Below, piece after piece: positions 7,573 to 60,901 of a stretch of DNA of 64,000 nt. The notes under the pieces are model-generated. The model searched no databases. It was not told the origin of the DNA and saw nothing but the letters and a program-made list of their open reading frames with translations. The stretch's first letter is position 1. Each line of letters starts with the position of its first letter. Location: assembly GCF_000745975.1 (NCBI RefSeq), contig NZ_JQKJ01000009.1, positions 1 through 64,000 of the forward strand, written 5' to 3'. Made by a program: the position numbers and the translations under genes. This DNA is from Desulfobacter vibrioformis DSM 8776. Lineage in GTDB: Bacteria > Desulfobacterota > Desulfobacteria > Desulfobacterales > Desulfobacteraceae.

Positions 7573-8209
7573 CTCCTGTATCCCGGTTAATGGCCGGAAG
7601 GGTATCCGGGATATCGGTGGTCAGACGGATTTTGTTGACCATGAGCTGGTTTCTCACCAGCCCCAGGGTGCCGGAAATGACGTCGGGAATGGTAATCCGT
7701 GACAGACGCGTTTGATCACTGCGCGAAAAATCCAGCAGGTTTTTCACCACATTGCTGGCCCGGGAGGTCTGGGTAATGATGTCCTGGATCATCTCCCGGA
7801 CCTCGGTGCCGGAGAGATCATCAAACGCTTCAAGCAGGCTGTCGGCGGTCAGGGAAATATTGTTCAGCGGATTGTTGATCTCATGGGCAATACCCGATGT
7901 AAAGGTGCCGATGGAGGCAAGTTTCCTGGACTGGACCAGCTGATCCTGTTTTTCATCCAGTTCCCGGACCATCTGGTTGAAACCGGCAATAAGCTGTGAA
8001 ATCTCATCGTGTTTGGAGGCATTCTCCATGATGGTTTTAAACTTGCCTTTGGGAATGCTCCGGGTGGCAAGGGTCACCTGATTCAGGCGCTTGAGCATAC
8101 TTTTGGCTTCAAACAGGAACACAATGGCAATACAAACAGTAAAGATGCTGACAAAAATAAGGCTGGCGATAAATCCTAAAATAATTTTGGTTCGGATGGT
8201 AAAGGGCAT
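7565..8209 (-). pseudogene. Truncated HAMP-HisKA sensor kinase lacking the ATPase domain
   Basis: 214 aa. A membrane helix lies at about residues 8-33, a HAMP-like linker at 34-90, and a HisKA dimerisation domain with the phospho-accepting His in FTSGIAHEINNPLNNISLTA. The protein stops soon after DIPDTLPAINRDTGGA, exactly where a HATPase_c domain (N, G1, F and G2 boxes) should begin, so no ATP-binding site remains. The stop overlaps the PEP/pyruvate-binding reading frame by a few bases. The simplest reading is a deletion that joined a kinase gene to the gene behind it, removing the kinase C-terminus and the neighbour's N-terminus. The transmembrane start has no obvious sensor domain, so N-terminal loss is also possible. 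Confidence 0.72.
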
Positions 8210-8472
8210 ATAAATTTCCTTTTTAAATAGCGTGGCCCCTGTTAAAAATTGGTGGAACCGGCTAATTTACAAAGCATAGACAAAGCATAAATCATACCAT
8301 TCGTTCACCACGAAGGAGATGACGTTTTGTACGCTGATATCTTCGTGAACATCGTGTTCGTCGTGGTAAAAAAGCAAGAATACACATTTATGATCCGTTA
8401 CTTGATTTAGCGCCACGCATGATATAGGTATGGGAAAATCTCAAATATGGTTATTTTATTTTAACGGGATGA
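8210..8472. other. Divergent intergenic region with an imperfect inverted repeat
   Basis: Separates the broken kinase (minus) from the AbrB-family gene (plus). ACCACGAA near 8308-8315 and TTCGTCGTGGT near 8353-8363 form an imperfect palindrome around several TTCGTG repeats. It could form a hairpin or be a short dispersed repeat. No gene is seen. Confidence 0.4.
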
Positions 8473-8988
8473 ATGGTTATGGAAAGATATTTGCTGGTTG
8501 TTGTGGCGGGGACTGTCGGGGGGCTTTTGGCACAACGCTGTCATATTCCCGGTGGAGCCGTTGTCGGGGCCATGTTGTTCTCGGGGATTACGGTTCTGTT
8601 TTTACCCAAGGGGATTGTTCTGCCGTCATCTGTGGGTACTGGCATACAAATCATTTTGGGCATCACCCTTGGGGTCACCGTTGACCGCTCACTTCTGACT
8701 CTGGGGGTCAAGATCTTCCCCCTGGCAATATTAAGCACCATCATTCTTTTGGCGGTGGCTGTGTGCATGGCGTTTCTGGCCAGCAAACTTGGGCTGGTGG
8801 ATTTTGGTACGGCCCTGTTCGGCTTTTCTCCGGGGGGAATGACGGGCATGGCTATTTTAGCCCAATCTGAAAATCATAACGGTTCTTTTGTGGCATTTTT
8901 TCATCTGGTGAGAATATTCACCCTTTTTCTGGTTATTCCGCTGCTCGTAAAGGTGGTCATGTATTTACAGCACAAGGGGTATCTTTAA
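8473..8988 (+). CDS. AbrB-family integral membrane protein (half-length)
   Basis: 171 aa and very hydrophobic, with about five membrane segments. It has two GG-rich signatures of the AbrB duplication family (ammonia monooxygenase-associated, PF05145): GGLLAQRCHIPGGAVVGAML near the start and FGFSPGGMTGMAIL at about residue 115. Family members are usually about 350 aa with a duplicated unit, so this is a single-unit version. The family's function is poorly defined; the name refers to a regulator in one member, and transport is more likely. The ATG is preceded by GGGATGAATGGTT. It is convergent with the Uup-like gene ten bases downstream. Confidence 0.7.
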   Translation: MVMERYLLVVVAGTVGGLLAQRCHIPGGAVVGAMLFSGITVLFLPKGIVLPSSVGTGIQIILGITLGVTVDRSLLTLGVKIFPLAILSTIILLAVAVCMAFLASKLGLVDFGTALFGFSPGGMTGMAILAQSENHNGSFVAFFHLVRIFTLFLVIPLLVKVVMYLQHKGYL

Positions 8989-8998
8989 TCATCAGCGG

Positions 8999-10825
8999 TT
9001 AATTTTTATCAGTTGCCGCTTTTTTTTCTTCTAATTCTTCCCAGCGTGAATAAAGCGATTGGACCAGGGCCTGGGCCTGCTCCAGTTTTTTACAGGTGTC
9101 TGCCAGACGGGCGGGGTCCTGGATGACTTCAGGGCGCTGGACATGTTCAGACAGATCTTCAACATTTTGTTCAGCATCCAGAATTTTTTCTTCTATATGC
9201 GCCAGTTCATATTTGTCTTTAAAGGAAAACAACAGCTTTTTGGCTGGAGTGGGTTTGGGCATCTCCTTTTTGCCTTTTTCCGCCCCGGACCGGTCAGTCT
9301 TGTCCCGGGCAGTCCGGGCCTTGATAATCTGCCTGAAATCCCTGTAAAACTGTGGCGTTTCACTGTTATCCAGATAGAGCATGCGGTGGCAGACCCGGTC
9401 CATGAGATACCGGTCATGGGAAACAATGATCACTGCGCCCTCAAACTCTTTGATGGAGGTTTCCAATACTTCAAGGGAGAGGATGTCAAGATCATTGGTC
9501 GGTTCGTCCAGAAGCAGCAGATCACAGGGCTGCCGCATAATTTCAGCCAGAACGATTCTTGCCTTTTCCCCGCCGGAAAGCCGTCCTACCGGCATGTCCA
9601 GCTGGTCAGGCATGAAAAGAAACCGTTTGGCCCAGGAGACCACATGAATGGGGCGGCCCTTGTAATTTATACTATCTCCGCCGGCCGGATTCAGCGCATC
9701 CCGCAGGGTCATTCCCGGGTCCAGCTGGGTCCGTTCCTGGTGGTAGACGGCTGTTTTTAGGTTTTCCGCCCATTTTACAGTTCCCTGGTCCGGTTCCATG
9801 CGTTGTTCGATCAGGGACAAAAAAGTGGATTTGCCGGATCCGTTGTCCCCGACAATGCCAAGACAAAACCCTGGCCCCAGTTCAAAGGTAATGTTTGAAA
9901 ACAGCATTCTGCCGCCAAAGCTTTTGGTCAGGTTATGCACCCTGAGCAGCTTTCTGGTCTGGCGTCCTGTGCCGGAAAAATCAATGTCCATCCGGGTGGT
10001 CTGCCGGTTTCGGGCCTTGACTTCGGACAGTTCTTTGCGCAGTTCCTCTGCCTGGTCTATCCTGTATTTGGCCTTGGTGGTTCTGGCCTTGGCTCCCTGG
10101 CGCAGCCACTGGTCTTCCCTGCGCATTTTAGATGCCAGGGAGGACTGTTTTTTCTCCTGGGCCTCCAGGTATTTGTCCCGCTCCTGTTCAAATTTGAGGT
10201 AATTGCCTTGTATCTTGAAAACCCCGCCCTGGTAGTATCGGGCAATTTCCATGGTGTGGGAACAGACATTTTCAAGGAATGCCCGGTCATGGGACACGGC
10301 CACAAAAGAAAACCGGGCGGTTAAGAGCAGTTGCTCAAGCCATAAAATGCCGGCAATATCCAGATGGTTGGTGGGCTCATCCAGCAAAAGCAGGTCCGGT
10401 TCCAGGCAAAAGGCCCGGGTGATGGCCAGCCGCTTGCGCCAGCCCCCTGACAGCTCTTTTGTCTTTATGGCGGCATTGGTAAAACCACCTGAGCCTAAGG
10501 CCCGGTTCACTCTCCGGTGGCGCTCTTTTTCCTGCAGATCCAGGGATGACAGACTGTTAAACAAGACCTGCTCAATGGAAAGGTCTGTATCAAATTCATC
10601 TTCCTGGGCAAGATAGACCAGGGAAAGGCCAGCCTGAACACTTATCTCACCTTCGTCCGGGGTGCTAAAGCCACAGATGATTTTTAAAAGGGTGGACTTG
10701 CCCGAACCATTCATCCCGATCAGACCGAGCTTTTCTCCGGGTTTTACATCCAAACTTAAACCTGTGAATAAGGTATCATCACCATATGCCTTGCAAAGTT
10801 CTCTTATCGACACCAAGACAGTCAT
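8999..10825 (-). CDS. uup: ABC-F family ATPase, Uup-like
   Basis: Soluble protein of 608 aa with two ABC ATPase domains and no membrane segments. Walker A motifs are GMNGSGKST and GDNGSGKST. Signatures are LSGGWRKR and LSGGEKAR, each followed by LLLLDEPTN. A charged linker lies between the domains, and the C-terminal 80 residues look like the Uup coiled-coil. ABC-F proteins act on ribosomes or branched nucleic acids rather than as transporters. Uup is linked to DNA repair and ribosome function. Its ATG overlaps the stop of the small membrane protein upstream by one base, so the two are probably co-transcribed. The symbol rests on domain layout and the C-terminal tail. Confidence 0.85.
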   Translation of the reverse strand: MTVLVSIRELCKAYGDDTLFTGLSLDVKPGEKLGLIGMNGSGKSTLLKIICGFSTPDEGEISVQAGLSLVYLAQEDEFDTDLSIEQVLFNSLSSLDLQEKERHRRVNRALGSGGFTNAAIKTKELSGGWRKRLAITRAFCLEPDLLLLDEPTNHLDIAGILWLEQLLLTARFSFVAVSHDRAFLENVCSHTMEIARYYQGGVFKIQGNYLKFEQERDKYLEAQEKKQSSLASKMRREDQWLRQGAKARTTKAKYRIDQAEELRKELSEVKARNRQTTRMDIDFSGTGRQTRKLLRVHNLTKSFGGRMLFSNITFELGPGFCLGIVGDNGSGKSTFLSLIEQRMEPDQGTVKWAENLKTAVYHQERTQLDPGMTLRDALNPAGGDSINYKGRPIHVVSWAKRFLFMPDQLDMPVGRLSGGEKARIVLAEIMRQPCDLLLLDEPTNDLDILSLEVLETSIKEFEGAVIIVSHDRYLMDRVCHRMLYLDNSETPQFYRDFRQIIKARTARDKTDRSGAEKGKKEMPKPTPAKKLLFSFKDKYELAHIEEKILDAEQNVEDLSEHVQRPEVIQDPARLADTCKKLEQAQALVQSLYSRWEELEEKKAATDKN

Positions 10826-51527: not shown

Positions 51528-51817
51528 AACATATCCCCCCAATTTAAATTGTAGTCTTTTTGATTAATTCTGTTAAAAATTACGATGTCATCCGGAAACA
51601 AATGCGAACAAGTATTATGTAGTTATTTTCTACATAACGCCGAAAATATCACTTCTGATTTTCCCTATCAGAAAGAAATTGAGTTGACAAGCAATTTATG
51701 AAGAGGTTATGAACTTTTCTAATGGGATAACATACGGATTATTGAGTTAATCAGCTTGTCCAGGGCCGCAAACGATTAGCTTCGGCTTGGCAATAAATGA
51801 AAGGTAGCACGAACTAA

Positions 51818-53204: not shown

Positions 53205-54122
53205 ATGCGACTGGTGACCCGATCCGACTTTGACGGCCTTGGCTGTGCAGCCATTCTCAAAGAAAAAGGAATTATTGATGACATTAAATTTGTCCATCCC
53301 AAAGATATTCAGGACGGTAAAATTGAAGTAACTTGCGACGATATTCTGTCAAACATTCCTTTCGTGCCCGGTTGCGGTATCTGGTTTGATCACCACACAA
53401 GCGAACAGGAACGCAAGGCATTCGGCAACTTTGAAGGGGAGTGCGATCCTTTGGCACCAAGTGCCGCCCGGGTTGTTTACGAGTACTATGGCGGGCTGGA
53501 AAATTTTAAGAACAAGCACCTTGATGACCTGATTCATGCCGTTGATAAAGCAGATTCTGCCCAGTTTACAAAAGAGGAAATTCTCAATCCCGAGGGCTGG
53601 GTCCTTTTGTCTTTTATCATGGATCCCCGCACCGGCCTCGGGCGTTACAAGGATTATCGCATCAGCAACTACGCTTTGATGATGGATATGATTGATTACT
53701 GCCGCACCAAGACGGCTCAGGAGATCCTTGGGCTTCCGGATATCAAGGAACGTACCGTGCGGTATTTTGAACAGGACAAACTATTCCGTAAGATGCTCCT
53801 TGACAAAAGCCGCATGAAAGGCAATGTCGTGGTCCTTGACTTACGGGAACAGGATGAAATCTACACAGGCAACCGGTTCCTTTTATACAGCCTGTTTCCC
53901 GAGGCAAATATCTCCATGCAGATTATGTGGGGCTTCCAGCGCCAGAATATTGTCATCACCTGTGGTTACAGCATTCTCAACAACACCGCCACAGCCGATG
54001 TGGGATCTTTGATGCTTAAACATGGCGGCGGCGGCCACAGGCGTGTGGGAACCTGCCAGGTGCCCATTGATAGGGCAGACGATATTATCAAGGAAATTTT
54101 TGAAGAACTGAATATGAGGTAA
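53205..54122 (+). CDS. DHH-family phosphoesterase
   Basis: 305 aa. The DHH domain has RSDFDGLGCAAIL (motif I) and WFDHHTSEQ (motif III DHH). The C-terminal DHHA1-type domain ends GGGGHRRVGTCQVP. Such proteins are exopolyphosphatase-like, cyclic-dinucleotide or nanoRNA phosphodiesterases. Size and the absence of membrane segments suggest a soluble NrnA-like or exopolyphosphatase-like enzyme. AAAAGGAGATATTC gives a strong ribosome-binding site. A terminator follows directly. Confidence 0.87.
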   Translation: MRLVTRSDFDGLGCAAILKEKGIIDDIKFVHPKDIQDGKIEVTCDDILSNIPFVPGCGIWFDHHTSEQERKAFGNFEGECDPLAPSAARVVYEYYGGLENFKNKHLDDLIHAVDKADSAQFTKEEILNPEGWVLLSFIMDPRTGLGRYKDYRISNYALMMDMIDYCRTKTAQEILGLPDIKERTVRYFEQDKLFRKMLLDKSRMKGNVVVLDLREQDEIYTGNRFLLYSLFPEANISMQIMWGFQRQNIVITCGYSILNNTATADVGSLMLKHGGGGHRRVGTCQVPIDRADDIIKEIFEELNMR

Positions 54123-54147
54123 GCTGATCACACTTATAGCAAGACCC

Positions 54148-54187
54148 TTAGGGCCCGGCCTGATTTCAGGCAGGGCCTTAAATTTTT
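54148..54187 (+). terminator. Terminator after the DHH gene
   Basis: TAGGGCCCGGCCTGA pairs imperfectly with TCAGGCAGGGCCTTA around a TT loop (54149-54180) and runs into AAATTTTT. It lies about 25 bases past the stop. Confidence 0.75.
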
Positions 54188-54757
54188 CACATCATGTAAT
54201 TTCAACCGCCAGTTACAGCCGTTTATTCTAAAATGAAAATGTATAAAAAATATACAATGTAAAATTTGCATTTGTGTCGTTCGTTTGATGTTTATTTTTC
54301 CTTAACTACTTAATATTATATTGTTTTTTTACAAAACATTCTTTTGTAATATCTATAAAAACAAAAAGCGTATGTGTTGATATTTTACAATTAACGGCAC
54401 CATTCATGGCAAACTGTGTAAAAAACATACATTTGTGAGATGTCATATGGCAATGCACACATTATCTTTTTTAGACAGAATCATAACAGTTTCATAAAAA
54501 AAATTTATTGAATTATAAAATCAGTTGATTAAATATTAAAATGACTTTCTGGCATGAATATCGCATAGTTCGCATAGTTATTGATTTCGTATTTCAAATC
54601 GTGTGGTTCATAATCCAACTGCACCGGTGTTGAGTTGATATACCAGTTCAAGGAAGAAATTAAAAAGGGAGTATAAAGAACGTACAACACAACATGTGTG
54701 TTTATGCCGTGTCGTTGGCGGTTGTTCCTATATTAATAATTTAAAAGAGAGGCGTTT
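54188..54757. other. Long AT-rich leader before the SET-domain operon
   Basis: 570 bases, more AT-rich than either side, with no gene on either strand. It contains many short A/T runs that could be bent DNA, a candidate sigma-54 promoter (next entry), and tandem CGCATAGTT repeats at 54562-54579. Such a leader suits binding of an enhancer protein upstream of a sigma-54 promoter. Confidence 0.5.
54550..54565 (+). promoter_or_regulatory. Candidate sigma-54 promoter
   Basis: TGGCATGAATATCGCA has the invariant GG (54551-54552) and GC (54563-54564) with the required ten bases between, close to TGGCAC-N5-TTGC. The -12 half (TCGCA) is weaker than consensus. It is about 190 bases before the SET gene, oriented towards it. 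A sigma-54 activator gene ends the cluster, which makes the site plausible but not proven. Confidence 0.4.
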
Positions 54758-55234
54758 ATGATTTACCCCAATGAATATGAGCTTGAAGCGGGCAGAAATT
54801 ATCCGCGCAACAAAGATTTTACGGTTAACCATTGTGAAACAAAAGGCTGCGGCATTTATGTAAAACGAAATTTTAAAAAAGGGGAGATGGTGGCAAGGAT
54901 GGCCGGGATCACCGTGCCGTATATTCTTCAGCACACCCTTCAGATCAGCCCCTTTCTCCATCTTTATGACCCACACTTTACAGGGCTTTTGCTGCACTCG
55001 TGTGATCCGCTTGTCTCCCTGGATATGAATACGCTTGAAATATGGGCATTGCAGGATATTCAGAAAGGTGAGGCCCTGACAATGGATTATGCCCAGACAG
55101 AGGACAAATTATTTAAACAGTTTCCCTGTTCATGTGGTGCGATCAACTGCCGCAAGTGGGTGACCGGCCGAAAAGAATCGATCAATGAAGCAGGCCGGCA
55201 ATACCTTCTCGAGCTGGAAAGGAAGTGTGGATGA
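54758..55234 (+). CDS. SET-domain protein (lysine methyltransferase-like)
   Basis: 158 aa, a compact SET domain. KGCGIYVKRNFKKGEMVARM is the SAM-binding GxG strand. LLLHSCDPLVSLDM stands for the NHSCxPN motif (Asn replaced by Leu). GEALTMDYAQTEDKLF holds the catalytic Tyr region, and CSCGAINCRKWVTG is a post-SET cysteine cluster. The fold is therefore complete but slightly unusual. SET proteins are uncommon in bacteria. It heads an operon: its stop overlaps the next ATG. The target may be a protein lysine or a small amine related to the following enzymes. AAGAGAGGCG precedes the ATG. Confidence 0.85.
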   Translation: MIYPNEYELEAGRNYPRNKDFTVNHCETKGCGIYVKRNFKKGEMVARMAGITVPYILQHTLQISPFLHLYDPHFTGLLLHSCDPLVSLDMNTLEIWALQDIQKGEALTMDYAQTEDKLFKQFPCSCGAINCRKWVTGRKESINEAGRQYLLELERKCG

Positions 55235-56451
55235 AGCCACAAAACAAGCGTTTGTGGTGGGAAAGACAGGATTTGTGTTACCAGGACGGGGTGTTGTTCT
55301 TTGCCGGAAAACCAGTGACTGATTTAATCCGCACAACCGGCACGCCGGCTTTCTTTTACAATGGAAGGCGGATGTTGCAAAATATCGGTCGGCTGCATAA
55401 GGCATTAGATCATGCGTTAGACCAACCGGGCGCCCATAAAATTTTTTATGCCATAAAAGCCAACCGGTTTGCCCCTGTGCTGACATACATTAAAAACGGG
55501 GCAAAATGCGGCGTGGATGTCTGTTCTCCCTGCGAATTGTTACATGCTTTTTCCTGCGGTTTCAATTGCAATGACATTTCATATACAGCCCACGCCATGA
55601 CAGATGATGAACTCAAGCTGTTGGCCGACAATCCGGATGTGGCTTTAAACTGCGACTCCTTGAGCACGATCCGGCGATTGGCCAGGTTCTGTTCCCACCG
55701 GAAAATCGGCATCCGTGTCAACCCGGCCATGGGGATTGGCTATAAAGATAATGAAACCCTGAAATACAGCGGCGATAAAACCACCAAGTTCGGCATTTAC
55801 AAGGAACAGTTTGACGATGCATTACAGCTTGCTGAAAAAAACAATTTTATCGTGGATACCATTCATTTCCATACCGGATGCGGATATTTGAACAATCAGT
55901 TATCCTTGTTCAATGAGATCTTACATGCAACACACTGGTTTTTAGATCAGGTGAAAGATCTGGCTTTCGTTAATCTTGGCGGGGGCCTGGGTGTTCCCCA
56001 TGATATGGATGACGCGCAATTGGATCTGGATGCCTGGGCATCGGTTATCAATTCCCATTTCGGCGGCAAAGGCATCACTGTCTGTGTTGAACCCGGGGAT
56101 TATATTGCCAAAGACAGTGGCATTCTGGTTTTAGAGGTGAACACTGTCGAGAAAAAGCGCAACACTGATTTTGTCAGTGTGAACGGTGGATTTAACCTGG
56201 CCATTGAACCGGCGTTTTATGGGCTGCCCTGCGAGCCTGTTGTACTGACGCAAAAAACGGACAAAATGAAACCTGTGACGATTGTAGGCAATATCAACGA
56301 GGCCCTGGATGTATGGAAAAACAATTTTTCCATGCCGGATCAGATTAAAGAGAAAGATCCGCTTGTTTTTATCAATGCCGGTGGATATGCCTCATCCATG
56401 ATGTCCGATCATTGTATGCGGGGACAGGTATCGGAAAATTTACTGGTATAA
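55231..56451 (+). CDS. Fold-type III PLP enzyme (diaminopimelate/ornithine decarboxylase-like)
   Basis: 406 aa from the ATG overlapping the SET stop (ATGA); the frame is open two codons earlier. The PLP lysine lies in KIFYAIKANRFAPVL. HFHTGCGYLNN and NLGGGLGVPHD bind the phosphate, and VCVEPGDYIAKDSGIL is the Arg/Glu strand of the family. The C-terminal IFINAGGYASSMM-like segment is normal. The segment that usually reads GPxCxxxD reads VGNINEALDVW, so the acid Cys of decarboxylases is Asn here while the Asp is kept. It may decarboxylate an unusual amino acid or act without decarboxylation. Confidence 0.85.
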   Translation: MKPQNKRLWWERQDLCYQDGVLFFAGKPVTDLIRTTGTPAFFYNGRRMLQNIGRLHKALDHALDQPGAHKIFYAIKANRFAPVLTYIKNGAKCGVDVCSPCELLHAFSCGFNCNDISYTAHAMTDDELKLLADNPDVALNCDSLSTIRRLARFCSHRKIGIRVNPAMGIGYKDNETLKYSGDKTTKFGIYKEQFDDALQLAEKNNFIVDTIHFHTGCGYLNNQLSLFNEILHATHWFLDQVKDLAFVNLGGGLGVPHDMDDAQLDLDAWASVINSHFGGKGITVCVEPGDYIAKDSGILVLEVNTVEKKRNTDFVSVNGGFNLAIEPAFYGLPCEPVVLTQKTDKMKPVTIVGNINEALDVWKNNFSMPDQIKEKDPLVFINAGGYASSMMSDHCMRGQVSENLLV

Positions 56452-56460
56452 AAGGCGATT

Positions 56461-57852
56461 ATGAATTTGAAAGCAAAACGTATACATTGTGCGGCTAAAG
56501 AGGCGACGCTTGCTGAAATAGATAAAAAACACATTATCCATCCGTGGTCGGATTTAGGCAGTGATGCCCGGTCCATGATCATTGAATCCGGTAAAGGGAT
56601 TCATGTGTTTGACAATGAAGGCAACCAATATATTGATTCGATCTCAGGCATGTGGTGTGTGAATCTGGGGTACGCAAATGAAGAGATGGCAGAAGCTATT
56701 GCCGACCAGTGTATTCGCCTGGTTTATTATACCCCCTTCGGGGCCATGGCAAGCCCGCCGTCCATCGAACTTGCACATCAACTGAGCCAGTTAACCCCTG
56801 GGGATCTTAATCATTTTCAATTTACAACCAGCGGGTCAACGGCGGTTGAATCCGCAATCCGGTTTGTTCATTACTATTTTAACTGCCTGGACCAGCCCGA
56901 AAAAAAACATATTATTTATCGTGAAAATGCCTATCACGGCAGTACCTATTTAAGTGCCTCGCTGAACGGCAAAAAATGCGACCGAAGCTACTTTCATTAC
57001 ATCACCGATATTGTCCACGCCATCCCTGATCCCAATCCGTATAAAAGAGAGCCAGGCATGAGTGTTGAAGATTTCTGCGATCTTCGGGTCCGTGAACTTG
57101 AAGAAAAGATTTTAGCGCTCGGGCCGGACAAAGCCGCATGTTTTATTGCCGAACCCGTCATGGGGTCAGGCGGCGTGATTGTTCCGCCGCCAGGGTATCA
57201 TAAAAGAACCTTGGATATCTGCAGAAAATATGACGTGCTGTATATCTCAGACGAAGTGGTCACAGCATTCGGGCGTCTGGGGCACCATTTCGCCTCTGAA
57301 GATGTTTTCGATATTGTTCCGGATATCATTACCGTGGCCAAGGGGATCTCTTCGGGGTATCAGCCTTTGGGGGCTGCCATCATATCCGAAAAGCTGATGA
57401 ATCGTATCAGCGGAGCATCGGCAAGGCAGAATTCATATTACACAAACGGATTTACCTATTCCGGGCATCCGGTGGCCTGCGCTGCGGCCCTGAAATATCT
57501 TGAAATCATGGACCGGGACAACATCAATGAACATGTCCGGGAAGTTGGCCCCTATTTCATGCAACGCCTGGCGGAACTCAAGTCGTTTCCCATTGTCGGC
57601 GATGTCAGAGGCCTTTGTTTAATGGCGTGTGTGGAATGTGTGGTGTCAGACGATGAGGACGAAAACATCGCTGTTGCGCAACGCGTGGATGAATTTTGCC
57701 AGGAAAAAGGGCTCATTGTCCGGCCCTATGAAAATTTATGCATATTATCTCCGCCGTTAATTATCGATAAATCCGGCATTGATCAGATTGTGGATATTTT
57801 AAGGGACAGTATTATCGCGACAATGGATGAAATAAACAAGGAGGCCAGGTGA
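56461..57852 (+). CDS. Class III aminotransferase
   Basis: 463 aa. SISGMWCVNLGYANEEMAEA, TTSGSTAVESAIRF, YRENAYHGSTYLSASLNG, ISDEVVTAFGRLGHHFA (PLP Asp) and ITVAKGISSGYQPLGAAI (PLP Lys) give a complete omega-aminotransferase. The family moves terminal amino groups of diamines or beta/gamma amino acids to pyruvate or 2-oxoglutarate. The natural substrate is probably the product of the PLP enzyme upstream. Stop and next start overlap (TGATGG). Confidence 0.92.
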   Translation: MNLKAKRIHCAAKEATLAEIDKKHIIHPWSDLGSDARSMIIESGKGIHVFDNEGNQYIDSISGMWCVNLGYANEEMAEAIADQCIRLVYYTPFGAMASPPSIELAHQLSQLTPGDLNHFQFTTSGSTAVESAIRFVHYYFNCLDQPEKKHIIYRENAYHGSTYLSASLNGKKCDRSYFHYITDIVHAIPDPNPYKREPGMSVEDFCDLRVRELEEKILALGPDKAACFIAEPVMGSGGVIVPPPGYHKRTLDICRKYDVLYISDEVVTAFGRLGHHFASEDVFDIVPDIITVAKGISSGYQPLGAAIISEKLMNRISGASARQNSYYTNGFTYSGHPVACAAALKYLEIMDRDNINEHVREVGPYFMQRLAELKSFPIVGDVRGLCLMACVECVVSDDEDENIAVAQRVDEFCQEKGLIVRPYENLCILSPPLIIDKSGIDQIVDILRDSIIATMDEINKEAR

Positions 57853-59261
57853 TGGAAAAAATAGAGACCCATCTTTTAATAAATGGAAATATCGTGGATG
57901 GGGAAGCGGAAAAAACATCTCTTTTCAGTCCGGAAAATAACGAATTTATAGTTGATGTGCCATGTGCGACCACAGCCCAGGTCGATCTGGCGGTGGATGC
58001 CGCCAATGCAGCGTTTCCGGCTTGGAAAAGAAAATCATTTGCTGACAGGGCCACGGTTTTATATAAATTTGCCGATCGCATTGATGAAAAAGCACAACTT
58101 TTGGCAAAACTTGAATCTCTGAACTGCGGTAAACCCTTTCAGCGAATGCTGGAAGATGAAATGCCGGCCATTTCCGATCATTTCAGGTTTTTTGCAGGCG
58201 CCTGCCGCTGCATGTCCGGCAGTGCCGCAGGTGAATATCTTGAAGGCTTCACCAGCATGATCCGCAGGGATCCGGTGGGCGTGGTGGGCCAGATCGCCCC
58301 CTGGAACTATCCTTTGATGATGGCGGCCTGGAAAATTGCCCCGGCCCTGGCCGCCGGAAATACGGTGGTATTCAAGCCGTCCGAATGCACACCCCTGACC
58401 ATGCTTGGGTTGGTGGAAGATATCAAGGAGCTGTTTCCTGCCGGTGTACTTAATATTGTAACGGGTAAAGGCAGTGTTATCGGAAAACACATTGCCGGGC
58501 ATGAAAAAATCCAGATGGTTTCAGTGACCGGTTCCGTCAATACCGGTAAACAGGTGCTGGCCTCTGCCACATCCAATGTAAAGCGCACCCATTTGGAGCT
58601 AGGGGGTAAGGCCCCGGTCATTGCATTTGATGATTGTGATATCGATGATCTGGTGGAAAATATGACATTGTGGGGATATTACAATGCAGGGCAGGATTGT
58701 ACTGCAGCCTGTCGCTTGTATGTTCAGGACAAGATCTACCCGGAAGTGGTTGAAAAGCTGACTGCAGCCGTTAAAAGCATTGACGTCAATGATATCGGGC
58801 CGTTAATTTCTGCAGAACAACGGGAGATTGTCAGCAGCTTTGTTGAGCGTGCCAAAAAGGTTCCGCATTTGAAAATTGTTGCCGGCGGCAATAAAATTGA
58901 CCGCGGATATTTCTATGAACCCACCCTGATCATTGATGCCCGTCAGGATGACGAAGTGGTTCAGGAGGAGATTTTCGGGCCGGTGGTTTCCGTCACCCGG
59001 TTCAACGATGCTGATCAGGCCATTGAATGGGCCAATGATTGCAAATATGGCCTGGCATCCTCAATCTGGACCAGGGATATCGAAAAAGCGCACAGGGTAT
59101 CATCCATGCTTCAGTTTGGTGTGACATGGATTAATACATATTTTATGTATGCATCCGAGATGCCCCATGGTGGATTTAAAATGTCCGGATACGGCAAGGA
59201 TCTTTCAATGTACGGACTGGAAGATTACACGGTTGTCCGGCATATTATGGTGAAAATGTAA
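57852..59261 (+). CDS. Aldehyde dehydrogenase (aminoaldehyde/betaine-aldehyde type)
   Basis: 469 aa; the frame also offers a GTG one codon earlier. GQIAPWNYPLMMAAWKIAPA, NTVVFKPSECTPLT, VTGSVNTGKQVLA, HLELGGKAPVI (Glu) and NAGQDCTAACRLYV (catalytic Cys) are intact. The Cys context and MSGYGKDLSMYGLEDYTVVRH ending match aminoaldehyde dehydrogenases such as gamma-aminobutyraldehyde dehydrogenase. It would oxidise the aldehyde formed by the aminotransferase to an omega-amino acid. It ends the enzymatic part of the operon. Confidence 0.92.
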   Translation: MEKIETHLLINGNIVDGEAEKTSLFSPENNEFIVDVPCATTAQVDLAVDAANAAFPAWKRKSFADRATVLYKFADRIDEKAQLLAKLESLNCGKPFQRMLEDEMPAISDHFRFFAGACRCMSGSAAGEYLEGFTSMIRRDPVGVVGQIAPWNYPLMMAAWKIAPALAAGNTVVFKPSECTPLTMLGLVEDIKELFPAGVLNIVTGKGSVIGKHIAGHEKIQMVSVTGSVNTGKQVLASATSNVKRTHLELGGKAPVIAFDDCDIDDLVENMTLWGYYNAGQDCTAACRLYVQDKIYPEVVEKLTAAVKSIDVNDIGPLISAEQREIVSSFVERAKKVPHLKIVAGGNKIDRGYFYEPTLIIDARQDDEVVQEEIFGPVVSVTRFNDADQAIEWANDCKYGLASSIWTRDIEKAHRVSSMLQFGVTWINTYFMYASEMPHGGFKMSGYGKDLSMYGLEDYTVVRHIMVKM

Positions 59262-59273
59262 AACCCCCCATTT

Positions 59274-59328
59274 TAAAAGATAAAAACAGATGGATATATG
59301 CGGTTATTCATCTGCTTTTATGCTTTTC
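59274..59328 (+). terminator. Terminator after the SET-ALDH operon
   Basis: AAAAG, ATAAAAACAGATG on the left and CATCTGCTTTTATGCTTTT on the right form an imperfect stem of about 17 pairs with a 16-base loop, ending in T runs. It separates the enzyme genes from the regulator. Confidence 0.6.
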
Positions 59329-59512
59329 AAAGGTGTGTGCAGTTTATGCACATGCCTTGTTTTTTATCCCCTTGAAATCTCGATTAATTAATGGTAGTTC
59401 ATAAGAAATTTGTCGGAACATTCTTAGGAAACGAGTTCAATTTTGTGCATATCTTTTACAATCTGTTGGTTTTTTACCCGCTGGGCAACCTTGACAAAAG
59501 TGCTGGAATCCA

Positions 59513-60901
59513 ATGGATAACCCAGACGACCCCATCCGCGTTCTGTGTGTGGATAAGGGTAAACTGCTCGCAGACCAGGTCAAGGAAGTATTTAATGAAG
59601 ACCAGGTCACCATCGACTTTGAAAGAAGTCTTGAAACTGTTGTGGACCGGTTTGAAAAAGAGCGGTTTGATCTGATGCTCTTTTCCGGATCCATGGCCAG
59701 GAATCAGCAGTCAGACGCCTTGGATATCCTGGAACTGATCTCAGCCAAATGTCCCCAGACCCAGATTTTGCTGTTCATGCCACCAGGCGCCCTGAAGTTT
59801 GCCAATCTTGGGCTGCGGGCCGGGGCCTATCACTATTCCACCCTGCCCATCAGCAACGAGGAACTCAAGTTGCTCATGGGGTCCGCCATTCAGGCCCAAC
59901 CCCAATTGGGGCCCAATATGCTTTTAAAGTCCGAGGCAGAGAAAACAACCTTTGAAAGCATGGTCGGCAGATCCTCGGTGATGCAGAAGACCTACCGGCA
60001 GATCCGTCAGGCCGCAGCCACAGATATTCCCGTCCTGATTTCAGGCGAAACCGGTACGGGCAAAGAATTGGTGGCCCAGGCAATTCATGAACTGAGCACC
60101 AGGGCCCAGGCCCCTTGCATTCCGGTCCATATTGCTTCCCTTCCCCAGGATCTGGTGGCCAGCGAGCTGTTCGGACATGTAGCCGGCGCCTTTACCGGGG
60201 CCTCCAGGCTGAGGAAAGGGTGTTTTGAACAAGCAGAGGGAGGAACCGTATTTCTGGACGAGATCGGTACCATTGATCAGAGGATGCAGGTCAGCCTGCT
60301 CAGGCTTTTAGAGACCAGTGAATTTTCCAGGATCGGCAGTCAGGAGAGCCGGAAAGCCAATGCCCGGGTGATTGCCGCCACCAATTCAAACCTTGAAGAT
60401 GAGGTCCGGCTGGGCAACTTCAGACAGGATCTGTATTACAGACTGGATGTCCTGAGCATTGAAATGCCGCCTCTGCGGGAACGCAACGGCGACATCCCCC
60501 TGCTGGTGAGCCACTTTATCAAACAGGCCTGCGACGGTTTCAAGAAAAATATCCGGGGCATGTCTTCGGATTTTATCAACTGCGTTGAGGCCTATCCCTG
60601 GCCGGGCAACGTCAGGGAACTGAAAAACGCCATCCAGAGTGCGGTTATCTCTGCCACAGAAGATGTTCTCAGGACCGGCAACCTGCCCGGCCGGGTCAGC
60701 CAGAACCAGGACCGGGAGACCCGGATGACCATCCGTGTGGGGATGACGCTGGCCCAGGTAGAAAAAGAATTGATTATCCGGACCCTGGACCACACCGGAG
60801 GAAACCGGTCCCGGACCAGCGAGATCCTGGGCATTTCCCGGCGGTCTTTGTATAATAAAATGGACCGTTACGGGCTGAGCATGAAATTTCCAAAAATATA
60901 A
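59513..60901 (+). CDS. Sigma-54-dependent activator with degenerate receiver domain
   Basis: 462 aa. Residues about 8-125 have a receiver fold ([20 protein letters not shown]) but not the phosphorylation site. The usual Asp pair reads VDK, the phospho-Asp position reads LMLFSGSMA, and the KP motif reads TLPIS. The AAA+ domain (about 150-385) is complete: Walker [18 protein letters not shown], the GAFTGA loop for sigma-54 contact, Walker [12 protein letters not shown], and arginine finger region [19 protein letters not shown] Fis-type HTH ends the protein ([26 protein letters not shown]). It probably activates the adjacent operon without phosphorylation. Confidence 0.9.

Follow-up and report, generated by a model that had tools for sequence, protein, structure and literature searches.

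A predicted methionine-methylation operon for dimethylsulfoniopropionate synthesis in the sulfate reducer Desulfobacter vibrioformis

The window analysed here is a 64,000-nucleotide stretch of contig NZ_JQKJ01000009.1 of Desulfobacter vibrioformis DSM 8776 (genome of 4.47 Mb in 86 contigs), and it contains a four-gene operon that begins with a SET-domain gene and is followed by a gene for a sigma-54-dependent activator. Judged by homology, the four genes very probably allow a sulfate reducer to make dimethylsulfoniopropionate (DMSP) de novo by way of methionine methylation, the product being probably kept as a compatible solute. The organisms from which this sulfur compound is chiefly known are marine algae and bacteria that use oxygen. 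The five genes are as follows (PLP, pyridoxal 5′-phosphate).

54758-55234, + strand: SET-domain gene P0001 (158 aa), BurB-type; predicted methionine S-methyltransferase
55231-56451, + strand: fold-III PLP decarboxylase gene P0002, BurI-type; predicted S-methylmethionine decarboxylase
56461-57852, + strand: class-III aminotransferase gene P0003, BurD-like; predicted DMSP-amine aminotransferase
57852-59261, + strand: aldehyde dehydrogenase (ALDH) gene P0004 of the aminobutyraldehyde/betaine aldehyde type, BurE-like; predicted DMSP-aldehyde dehydrogenase
59513-60901, + strand: sigma-54-dependent activator gene P0005, receiver without the usual phospho-Asp; predicted operon-specific regulator

The stop of the SET gene and the start of the decarboxylase gene overlap by four bases (ATGA), nine bases separate the decarboxylase stop from the aminotransferase start, and the aminotransferase and ALDH genes overlap by one base (TGATG). 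Among the related regions L013-L020, all six that span the operon keep the four-gene order at 75-93% identity; L015 reaches its contig end past the SET and decarboxylase genes, and L020 has these two genes only. The sequence-only reading had placed four packed genes and a sigma-54 activator here, and the coordinates and Pfam domains agree with it; its view of the four as one transcription unit, with the SET gene conserved next to the other three in relatives, is borne out by the junctions and the order. The Pfam matches of the enzymes are all above cut-off (SET 30.3 bits against 22.4, Orn_Arg_deC_N 102, Orn_DAP_Arg_deC 48, Aminotran_3 279, Aldedh 519).

On the evidence of gene order, homology, motifs, conserved sites and co-occurrence, we infer the reactions, the product, its role and the contact between activator and DNA set out here. 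The SET protein would use S-adenosylmethionine (SAM) to methylate free methionine at its sulfur atom, which yields S-methylmethionine (SMM); the PLP enzyme would decarboxylate SMM to DMSP-amine; the aminotransferase would convert this to DMSP-aldehyde, which the dehydrogenase would oxidize to DMSP. DMSP is proposed as the product because the enzyme set ends there by homology. It would most likely be retained as a compatible solute, a putative role that is one of several known for DMSP. The activator, a pseudo-receiver protein, would bind TGTR-N9-YACA palindromes upstream of a −24/−12 promoter. In relatives, the same palindromes stand before a second gene pair for sulfide-dependent homocysteine synthesis (HcyBio and NIL/ferredoxin) or before the SAM synthetase gene metK, and sulfide-derived methionine and SAM would supply the pathway.

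Homology of the enzymes

BurB is described as a SET-domain enzyme that makes SMM from methionine and SAM, the first DMSP step in Burkholderia thailandensis (PMC12542666, PMC7496086). P0001 is predicted to be a methionine S-methyltransferase of this type. Its closest relative in the PDB is BurB (9l4t, 9l4v; phmmer E 2.3e-44 over residues 2-152), and the nearest matches after BurB are histone methyltransferases at about 2e-10. The AlphaFold model, built from the window protein and 35 relatives, has a mean pLDDT of 92, and its top Foldseek match is BurB-SMM-SAM (TM score 0.94, root-mean-square deviation 1.4, 47% identity). The non-BurB rows, which make up 47 of the 50 Foldseek matches listed and have histone methyltransferases among them, range from 0.53 to 0.66 in TM score. 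It is evident that BurB, rather than any lysine methyltransferase, is nearest to P0001 in both sequence and fold among the phmmer and Foldseek matches listed. BurB residues His72, Thr73, His93 and Tyr124 are conserved in P0001 as H59, T60, H80 and Y111, and H59, H80 and Y111 are invariant across the 36 aligned SET rows. Ser88 and Ala44 of BurB are altered to Thr and Cys, and Arg70, Val130 and Met132, which are said to act through the main chain, to Leu, Lys and Phe; the S88A variant of BurB is reported to retain more than 60% activity (PMC12542666).

The decarboxylase P0002 scores 200 bits against the lysA model TIGR01048, below the NCBIfam cut-off of 298, and lies outside LysA by that measure. 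It carries EPGD and GNINEALD where diaminopimelate (DAP) decarboxylases carry EPGR and GPICETGD, positions that contact PLP or substrate in related enzymes. Among 55 aligned decarboxylases (the window protein and 54 SET-linked ones; 59 were collected and short ones left out), the arginine position of EPGR is D, E or T in every one and EPGR occurs in none; GNINE is found in 53, GHINE in one, and one is gapped there. A DAP-decarboxylase-like control (L111) has both EPGR and GPICETGD. In bur-like regions of Burkholderia ubonensis and Burkholderia multivorans, decarboxylases encoded about 18 kb from the SET genes are 51% and 50% identical to P0002 and share its EPGD and GNINEALD motifs, the comparison being with proteins in the BurI position rather than with the assayed BurI. 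A Spartina DAP decarboxylase is described as the nearest of three candidates to BurI and SMMDC (PMC11464771).

Genes of the BurD and BurE classes, a class-III aminotransferase and an ALDH, adjoin the SET and decarboxylase genes. P0003 clears NCBIfam NF005447 (722 bits against 618), and its other five matches in the host genome are 29-39% identical; P0004 clears NF010000, the aminobutyraldehyde dehydrogenase subfamily (740 bits against 615). The aminotransferases and ALDHs of three bur-like loci (L055, L086, L100) are 54-58% and 50-52% identical, respectively, to those of the window. These results support the order that had been read from the sequence, methylation followed by decarboxylation, transamination and oxidation, and also its suggestion of a small-molecule methyltransferase leading to a methylated, osmolyte-like product. 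In two related loci, L030 (11469-13199) and L032 (11070-12800), an aldehyde ferredoxin oxidoreductase gene stands where the ALDH gene would be, and no ALDH gene was found in the stretch of L038 examined. In Desulfosarcina cetonica JCM 12296 (L031, 9690-11025), the aminotransferase frame is in three pieces, which could be a sequencing error or a broken gene.

Distribution and linked homocysteine and SAM genes

At E 0.001 P0001 matches only itself in its own genome and is matched in 9 of 86 family genomes, strongly in seven (the host genome, five more of the 19 genus genomes and one genome of a second genus, for which 26 were searched) and weakly in two; in a phylum-wide draw it was matched in 3 of 395 genomes, the host counted. 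A scan of 84,980 species genomes gave 108 relatives, and the counts that follow are for the best 80 of the 108. A decarboxylase gene is present in 59 of these 80 loci. The order SET-decarboxylase-aminotransferase is found at five loci (L029-L033), the order decarboxylase-SET-aminotransferase at another five (L034-L038), SET-decarboxylase without aminotransferase at 49, one of which (L028) is cut by its contig end, and a bur-like arrangement at three. The 18 loci lacking a decarboxylase gene in the stretch examined are from Pseudomonas (14), Pandoraea (3) and one alphaproteobacterial metagenome-assembled genome (MAG). A BurI-type decarboxylase was sought in eight genomes for which the SET locus had shown none: it is present in two Burkholderia, was not found in the three Pandoraea and two Pseudomonas genomes searched, and in the genome of L045 only a DAP-decarboxylase-like match of 26% was obtained. 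In one Pseudomonas locus (L058) the genes near the BurB relative encode a carbonic anhydrase, a short-chain fatty acid transporter and a 386-aa protein without Pfam match, and in a Pandoraea locus (L052) the BurB relative adjoins a PLP enzyme of Cys/Met metabolism.

In the SET tree, the window protein groups with those of Desulfobacter, Desulfobacula, Desulfosarcina, Desulfococcaceae, Desulfobacteraceae and Desulfatibacillum (7 rows, 99/93), and 39 rows from loci with SET and decarboxylase genes only form a separate group (100/100, branch 0.67). This second clade (e.g., L054, L062, L074, L093 and L105), in which the decarboxylase is BurI-type, has members in Desulfobulbus and in gammaproteobacterial MAGs of marine origin and includes a cable bacterium (Electrothrix); its product may be DMSP-amine or something else. 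No aminotransferase was found at E <= 1e-100 in any of 14 genomes with SET and decarboxylase genes only, some of them outside the 39-row clade; a control on 8 genomes where the aminotransferase is linked recovered it from all 8, and a repeat on two genomes was again negative for both. Both SET types occur in Desulfobulbus rhabdoformis DSM 8777, one within a decarboxylase-SET-aminotransferase-ALDH operon (L035), the other in a SET-decarboxylase pair that belongs to the second clade (L047). Since one strain carries both, the two types probably differ in function. BurB-type operons are found in Desulfobacter, Desulfobacula, Desulfosarcina, Desulfatibacillum, Desulfopila, Desulforhopalus and Thiorhodococcus. 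Culture-collection strains that carry the SET gene include Desulfatibacillum alkenivorans DSM 16219, Desulforhopalus vacuolatus DSM 9700, Desulfobulbus rhabdoformis DSM 8777 and Thiorhodococcus minor DSM 11518.

Genes for homocysteine and SAM synthesis stand near related operons. Of the 10 loci L029-L038, seven (L029-L033, L036 and L038) have a metK gene, recognized by reading its sequence, upstream of the operon. HcyBio and NIL/4Fe-4S genes adjoin the operon in L029, where they lie between metK and the operon, and in L036; they are also upstream of the SET gene in all five other SET-carrying genomes of the genus (L013-L017). HcyBio itself is present in all 19 genus genomes, and a second copy is found in five of the six genomes with the SET gene and in none of the 13 without it, the exception being that of the window. 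Desulfovibrio is reported to need HcyBio/DUF39 and NIL-ferredoxin proteins for homocysteine synthesis (PMC5764234). A methylenetetrahydrofolate reductase gene adjoins the operon in L038. In L013, unrelated sequence that reads as transposase-like (8103-9528) separates the NIL gene and the SET gene. In the window, the gene 5′ of the operon leader (53205-54122) has no Pfam or NCBIfam match and reads as DHH-like; because it is not the HcyBio/NIL pair of the other SET-carrying genus genomes, the operon has probably moved or lost its neighbors.

The activator and its candidate sites

At E 1e-100 the genus genomes with the activator are exactly the six, out of 19, that have the SET gene; for independent genomes the chance of this would be 1 in 27,132, although these genomes are not independent. 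In the second genus it occurs in 1 of 26 genomes, the one with the SET gene, 3.5 kb upstream on the other strand. We dropped the notion of a chance neighbor on this co-occurrence and on the palindromes that the leaders have in common. The Sigma54_activat (220 bits) and HTH_8 (Fis-type helix-turn-helix, 62 bits) matches of the activator are above the Pfam cut-offs, and Response_reg (25.8 bits) is below its cut-off of 30.2. Among 10 aligned activators, all keep GAFTGA in the AAA+ domain and none has Asp at the receiver position that we assign to the phospho-acceptor from the general receiver motif. Control by a ligand or by the activator's own amount is more likely than control by a kinase, because the receiver lacks that residue.

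The operon leader (54123-54757, 635 bp) has a GC content of 31.5%, against 48.1% for the window. The following candidate sites were identified in it and before the activator gene.

54240-54256, no strand: palindrome 1 (TGTR-N9-YACA), candidate activator-binding site
54373-54389, no strand: palindrome 2, 133 bp past palindrome 1
54415-54431, no strand: palindrome 3, 42 bp past palindrome 2
54550-54565, + strand: candidate −24/−12 (sigma-54) promoter, 208 bp upstream of the start of the SET gene
59336-59352, no strand: palindrome before the activator gene
59444-59460, no strand: second palindrome before the activator gene

The 17-bp palindrome marks the leaders of the operon, the homocysteine genes and the activator; one further match lies at 51618. 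A pair spaced by 42 bp occurs at one site genome-wide, that of this operon, and the reversed-pattern control gave none. L015-L017 have a palindrome triplet before the SET gene with spacings of 134 and 42, L014 has two palindromes there, and all five of L013-L017 have a triplet before HcyBio. The SET leader of L013 has neither palindromes nor a −24/−12 element. The pattern was derived from the genus leaders and L029-L033 were inspected afterwards: 10 of their 11 matches lie in the leader between the activator gene and metK or before metK, with spacings of 135 and 42 again in L030. The window and ten loci together have 52 matches, of which 48 fall in leaders that make up 10.9 of 229.6 kb, the leader bounds having been chosen after the palindrome sites were known; composition shuffles of the leaders gave a mean of 0.9 and a maximum of 4 palindromes (300 shuffles).

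The sigma-54 module with its own activator, as read from the sequence, is supported. A plain consensus scan of the window gave 65 sigma-54 matches against 78 expected, so that no promoter can be claimed on that basis. The case for the candidate comes from conservation and a shuffle test. The −24/−12 element is kept in an otherwise diverged leader, downstream of the palindromes before the SET gene, in five of six genus leaders (not L013), it outscores shuffles of the leader (P = 0.002), and an element stands downstream of the palindromes before HcyBio in 5/5 (L013-L017) and before metK in 5/5 (L029-L033). The palindrome nearest to the element lies 112-135 bp away before the SET gene, 176 bp away in L029 and 344 in L031. 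Plain scans gave 3 sigma-70-like sites against 3.8 expected and 2 terminator-like sites against 0.3 expected, both short or A/T-rich, and a riboswitch search of 54000-59600 returned two Rfam matches, both far under their gathering scores.

Alternative readings and known systems

Several observations weigh against DMSP synthesis under a dedicated regulator. Three side chains that contact SAM in BurB are altered in P0001 (Arg42 to Lys, Arg133 to Lys and His138 to Ser), and a search of NCBIfam at E 0.001 gave no family, and so no specific name, for P0001; the NCBIfam names of the aminotransferase and ALDH leave their substrates unfixed. SET relatives exist in genomes without any BurI-type decarboxylase (five of the eight searched), and the SET protein alone is therefore no proof of the pathway. 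The burD and burE mutants of B. thailandensis are reported still to produce malleicyprol (PMC7496086), so the aminotransferase and ALDH steps are not strictly diagnostic. The co-occurrence of activator and SET gene within the genus may reflect one clade, no palindromes were found in the decarboxylase-SET loci L034-L038, two of which (L036 and L038) nevertheless have a related activator, and no convincing −24/−12 element was found before the activator gene. The window's own genome has the single HcyBio common to all 19 genus genomes and no operon-linked second copy, and neither metK nor HcyBio lies beside the operon in the 48-64 kb examined, no genome-wide search for metK having been made; the supply coupling is thus seen in relatives only.

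Other products were considered. Lysine methylation is what SET proteins are best known for, the family of P0002 takes in ornithine and lysine decarboxylases, the ALDH belongs to the aminobutyraldehyde dehydrogenase subfamily and the aminotransferase resembles polyamine aminotransferases. In a reading built on these points, the methyl acceptor of the SET protein would be lysine, ornithine, a diamine or a neighboring enzyme, and the pathway would end in a methylated amino acid such as a valerobetaine or butyrobetaine. The sequence-only reading had named lysine, cadaverine, putrescine or a neighboring protein as acceptors, which the nearness of BurB does not support. We rejected lysine or diamine methylation on the BurB similarity, the TM scores and the motifs that the decarboxylase shares with enzymes in the BurI position; the linked genes in relatives, moreover, are for homocysteine and SAM synthesis, and such a product appears very unlikely. 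It is slightly less unlikely, and still improbable, that DMSP is made but then built into a larger secondary metabolite, the kind of pathway in which the best-known BurB acts (PMC7496086). The longest frame listed in L029-L038 is 893 aa, whereas three bur-like loci have 2600-aa frames beside the SET gene, and the operon's neighbors in the window (48-64 kb; the rest of the genome was not searched) do not read as polyketide or nonribosomal peptide synthetases in size.

The operon might also turn over SMM, buffering SAM and methionine instead of giving net DMSP. Plants are described as running an SMM cycle that regulates SAM and Met (PMC9135737), and a homocysteine S-methyltransferase gene lies upstream of the SET-decarboxylase pair in L105, with the same cluster in L065. 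Both loci, however, belong to the separate 39-row clade, no homocysteine S-methyltransferase was recognized beside the operon in the window, and decarboxylation, transamination and oxidation would remove SMM permanently, which leaves turnover the least probable of these explanations. Net DMSP synthesis by the BurB-type route remains our preferred reading. We also favor, with moderate confidence, the wider proposal that strictly anaerobic sulfate reducers turn their own waste sulfide into DMSP by a dedicated regulon consisting of a second homocysteine pair or metK (in other genera), the BurB-type route ending in an ALDH or aldehyde ferredoxin oxidoreductase, and the pseudo-receiver activator, which would act through spaced palindromes.

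If this is true, anoxic sediments would hold DMSP producers that surveys for dsyB and mmtN miss, and oxygen-free sediments may produce some DMSP of their own. DMSP production by sulfate reducers is directly testable, because burB-type operons occur in several genera and some of the strains are in culture collections. The operon would further place a SET-domain enzyme that acts on a small molecule in a second setting, and it would provide a regulator whose sites can be read and a SET marker that present family models miss. A 2022 paper places BurB in some Burkholderia only (PMC9135737), and a June 2026 review describes BurB as reported exclusively in B. thailandensis and burB as having a narrow taxon range (PMC13360808). 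A 2025 study of anoxic saltmarsh sediment gives dsyB as the sole synthesis gene detected, does not mention burB in its main text, leaves open whether the sediment holds novel synthesis genes, and records Desulfosarcinaceae there (PMC12596276). No report of genes for DMSP synthesis in a sulfate reducer came up in our searches of the open-licence literature. Nor did anything found there describe this host group, a free-standing operon of this kind, its link to SAM synthesis and sulfide-based homocysteine synthesis, the variant enzyme at the last step or the regulator.

The sequence-only reading knew of no described pathway with this gene set; by homology the four genes match the BurB-BurI-BurD-BurE route to DMSP (PMC7496086, PMC12542666). 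The enzyme classes and their predicted chemical order are the same as in B. thailandensis, and the chemistry is that of the bur pathway; therefore the kind of system is known. Unlike bur, the window operon is free-standing, with the SET gene first, no polyketide genes seen nearby and an anaerobic sulfate reducer as host. It also differs in having a sigma-54 activator and palindromes, and its relatives differ in their linked homocysteine and SAM synthesis genes and, in L030 and L032, in the replacement of the ALDH by an aldehyde ferredoxin oxidoreductase. The methylation pathway of Streptomyces mobaraensis and of bacteria with MmtN is described with the same intermediates, SMM, DMSP-amine and DMSP-aldehyde, on the way to DMSP (PMC9135737, PMC12542666). 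MmtN is a methyltransferase of another kind, reported to be without significant similarity to BurB (PMC12542666), and these two sources disagree on the relatives of the first enzyme of S. mobaraensis. The HcyBio/DUF39 and NIL-ferredoxin system of Desulfovibrio (PMC5764234) involves the same two protein families as the genes that adjoin the operon in relatives from Desulfobacter and Desulfobacula. Unlike in that system, the operon-linked HcyBio is a second copy, and it has the same palindromes before it as the operon.

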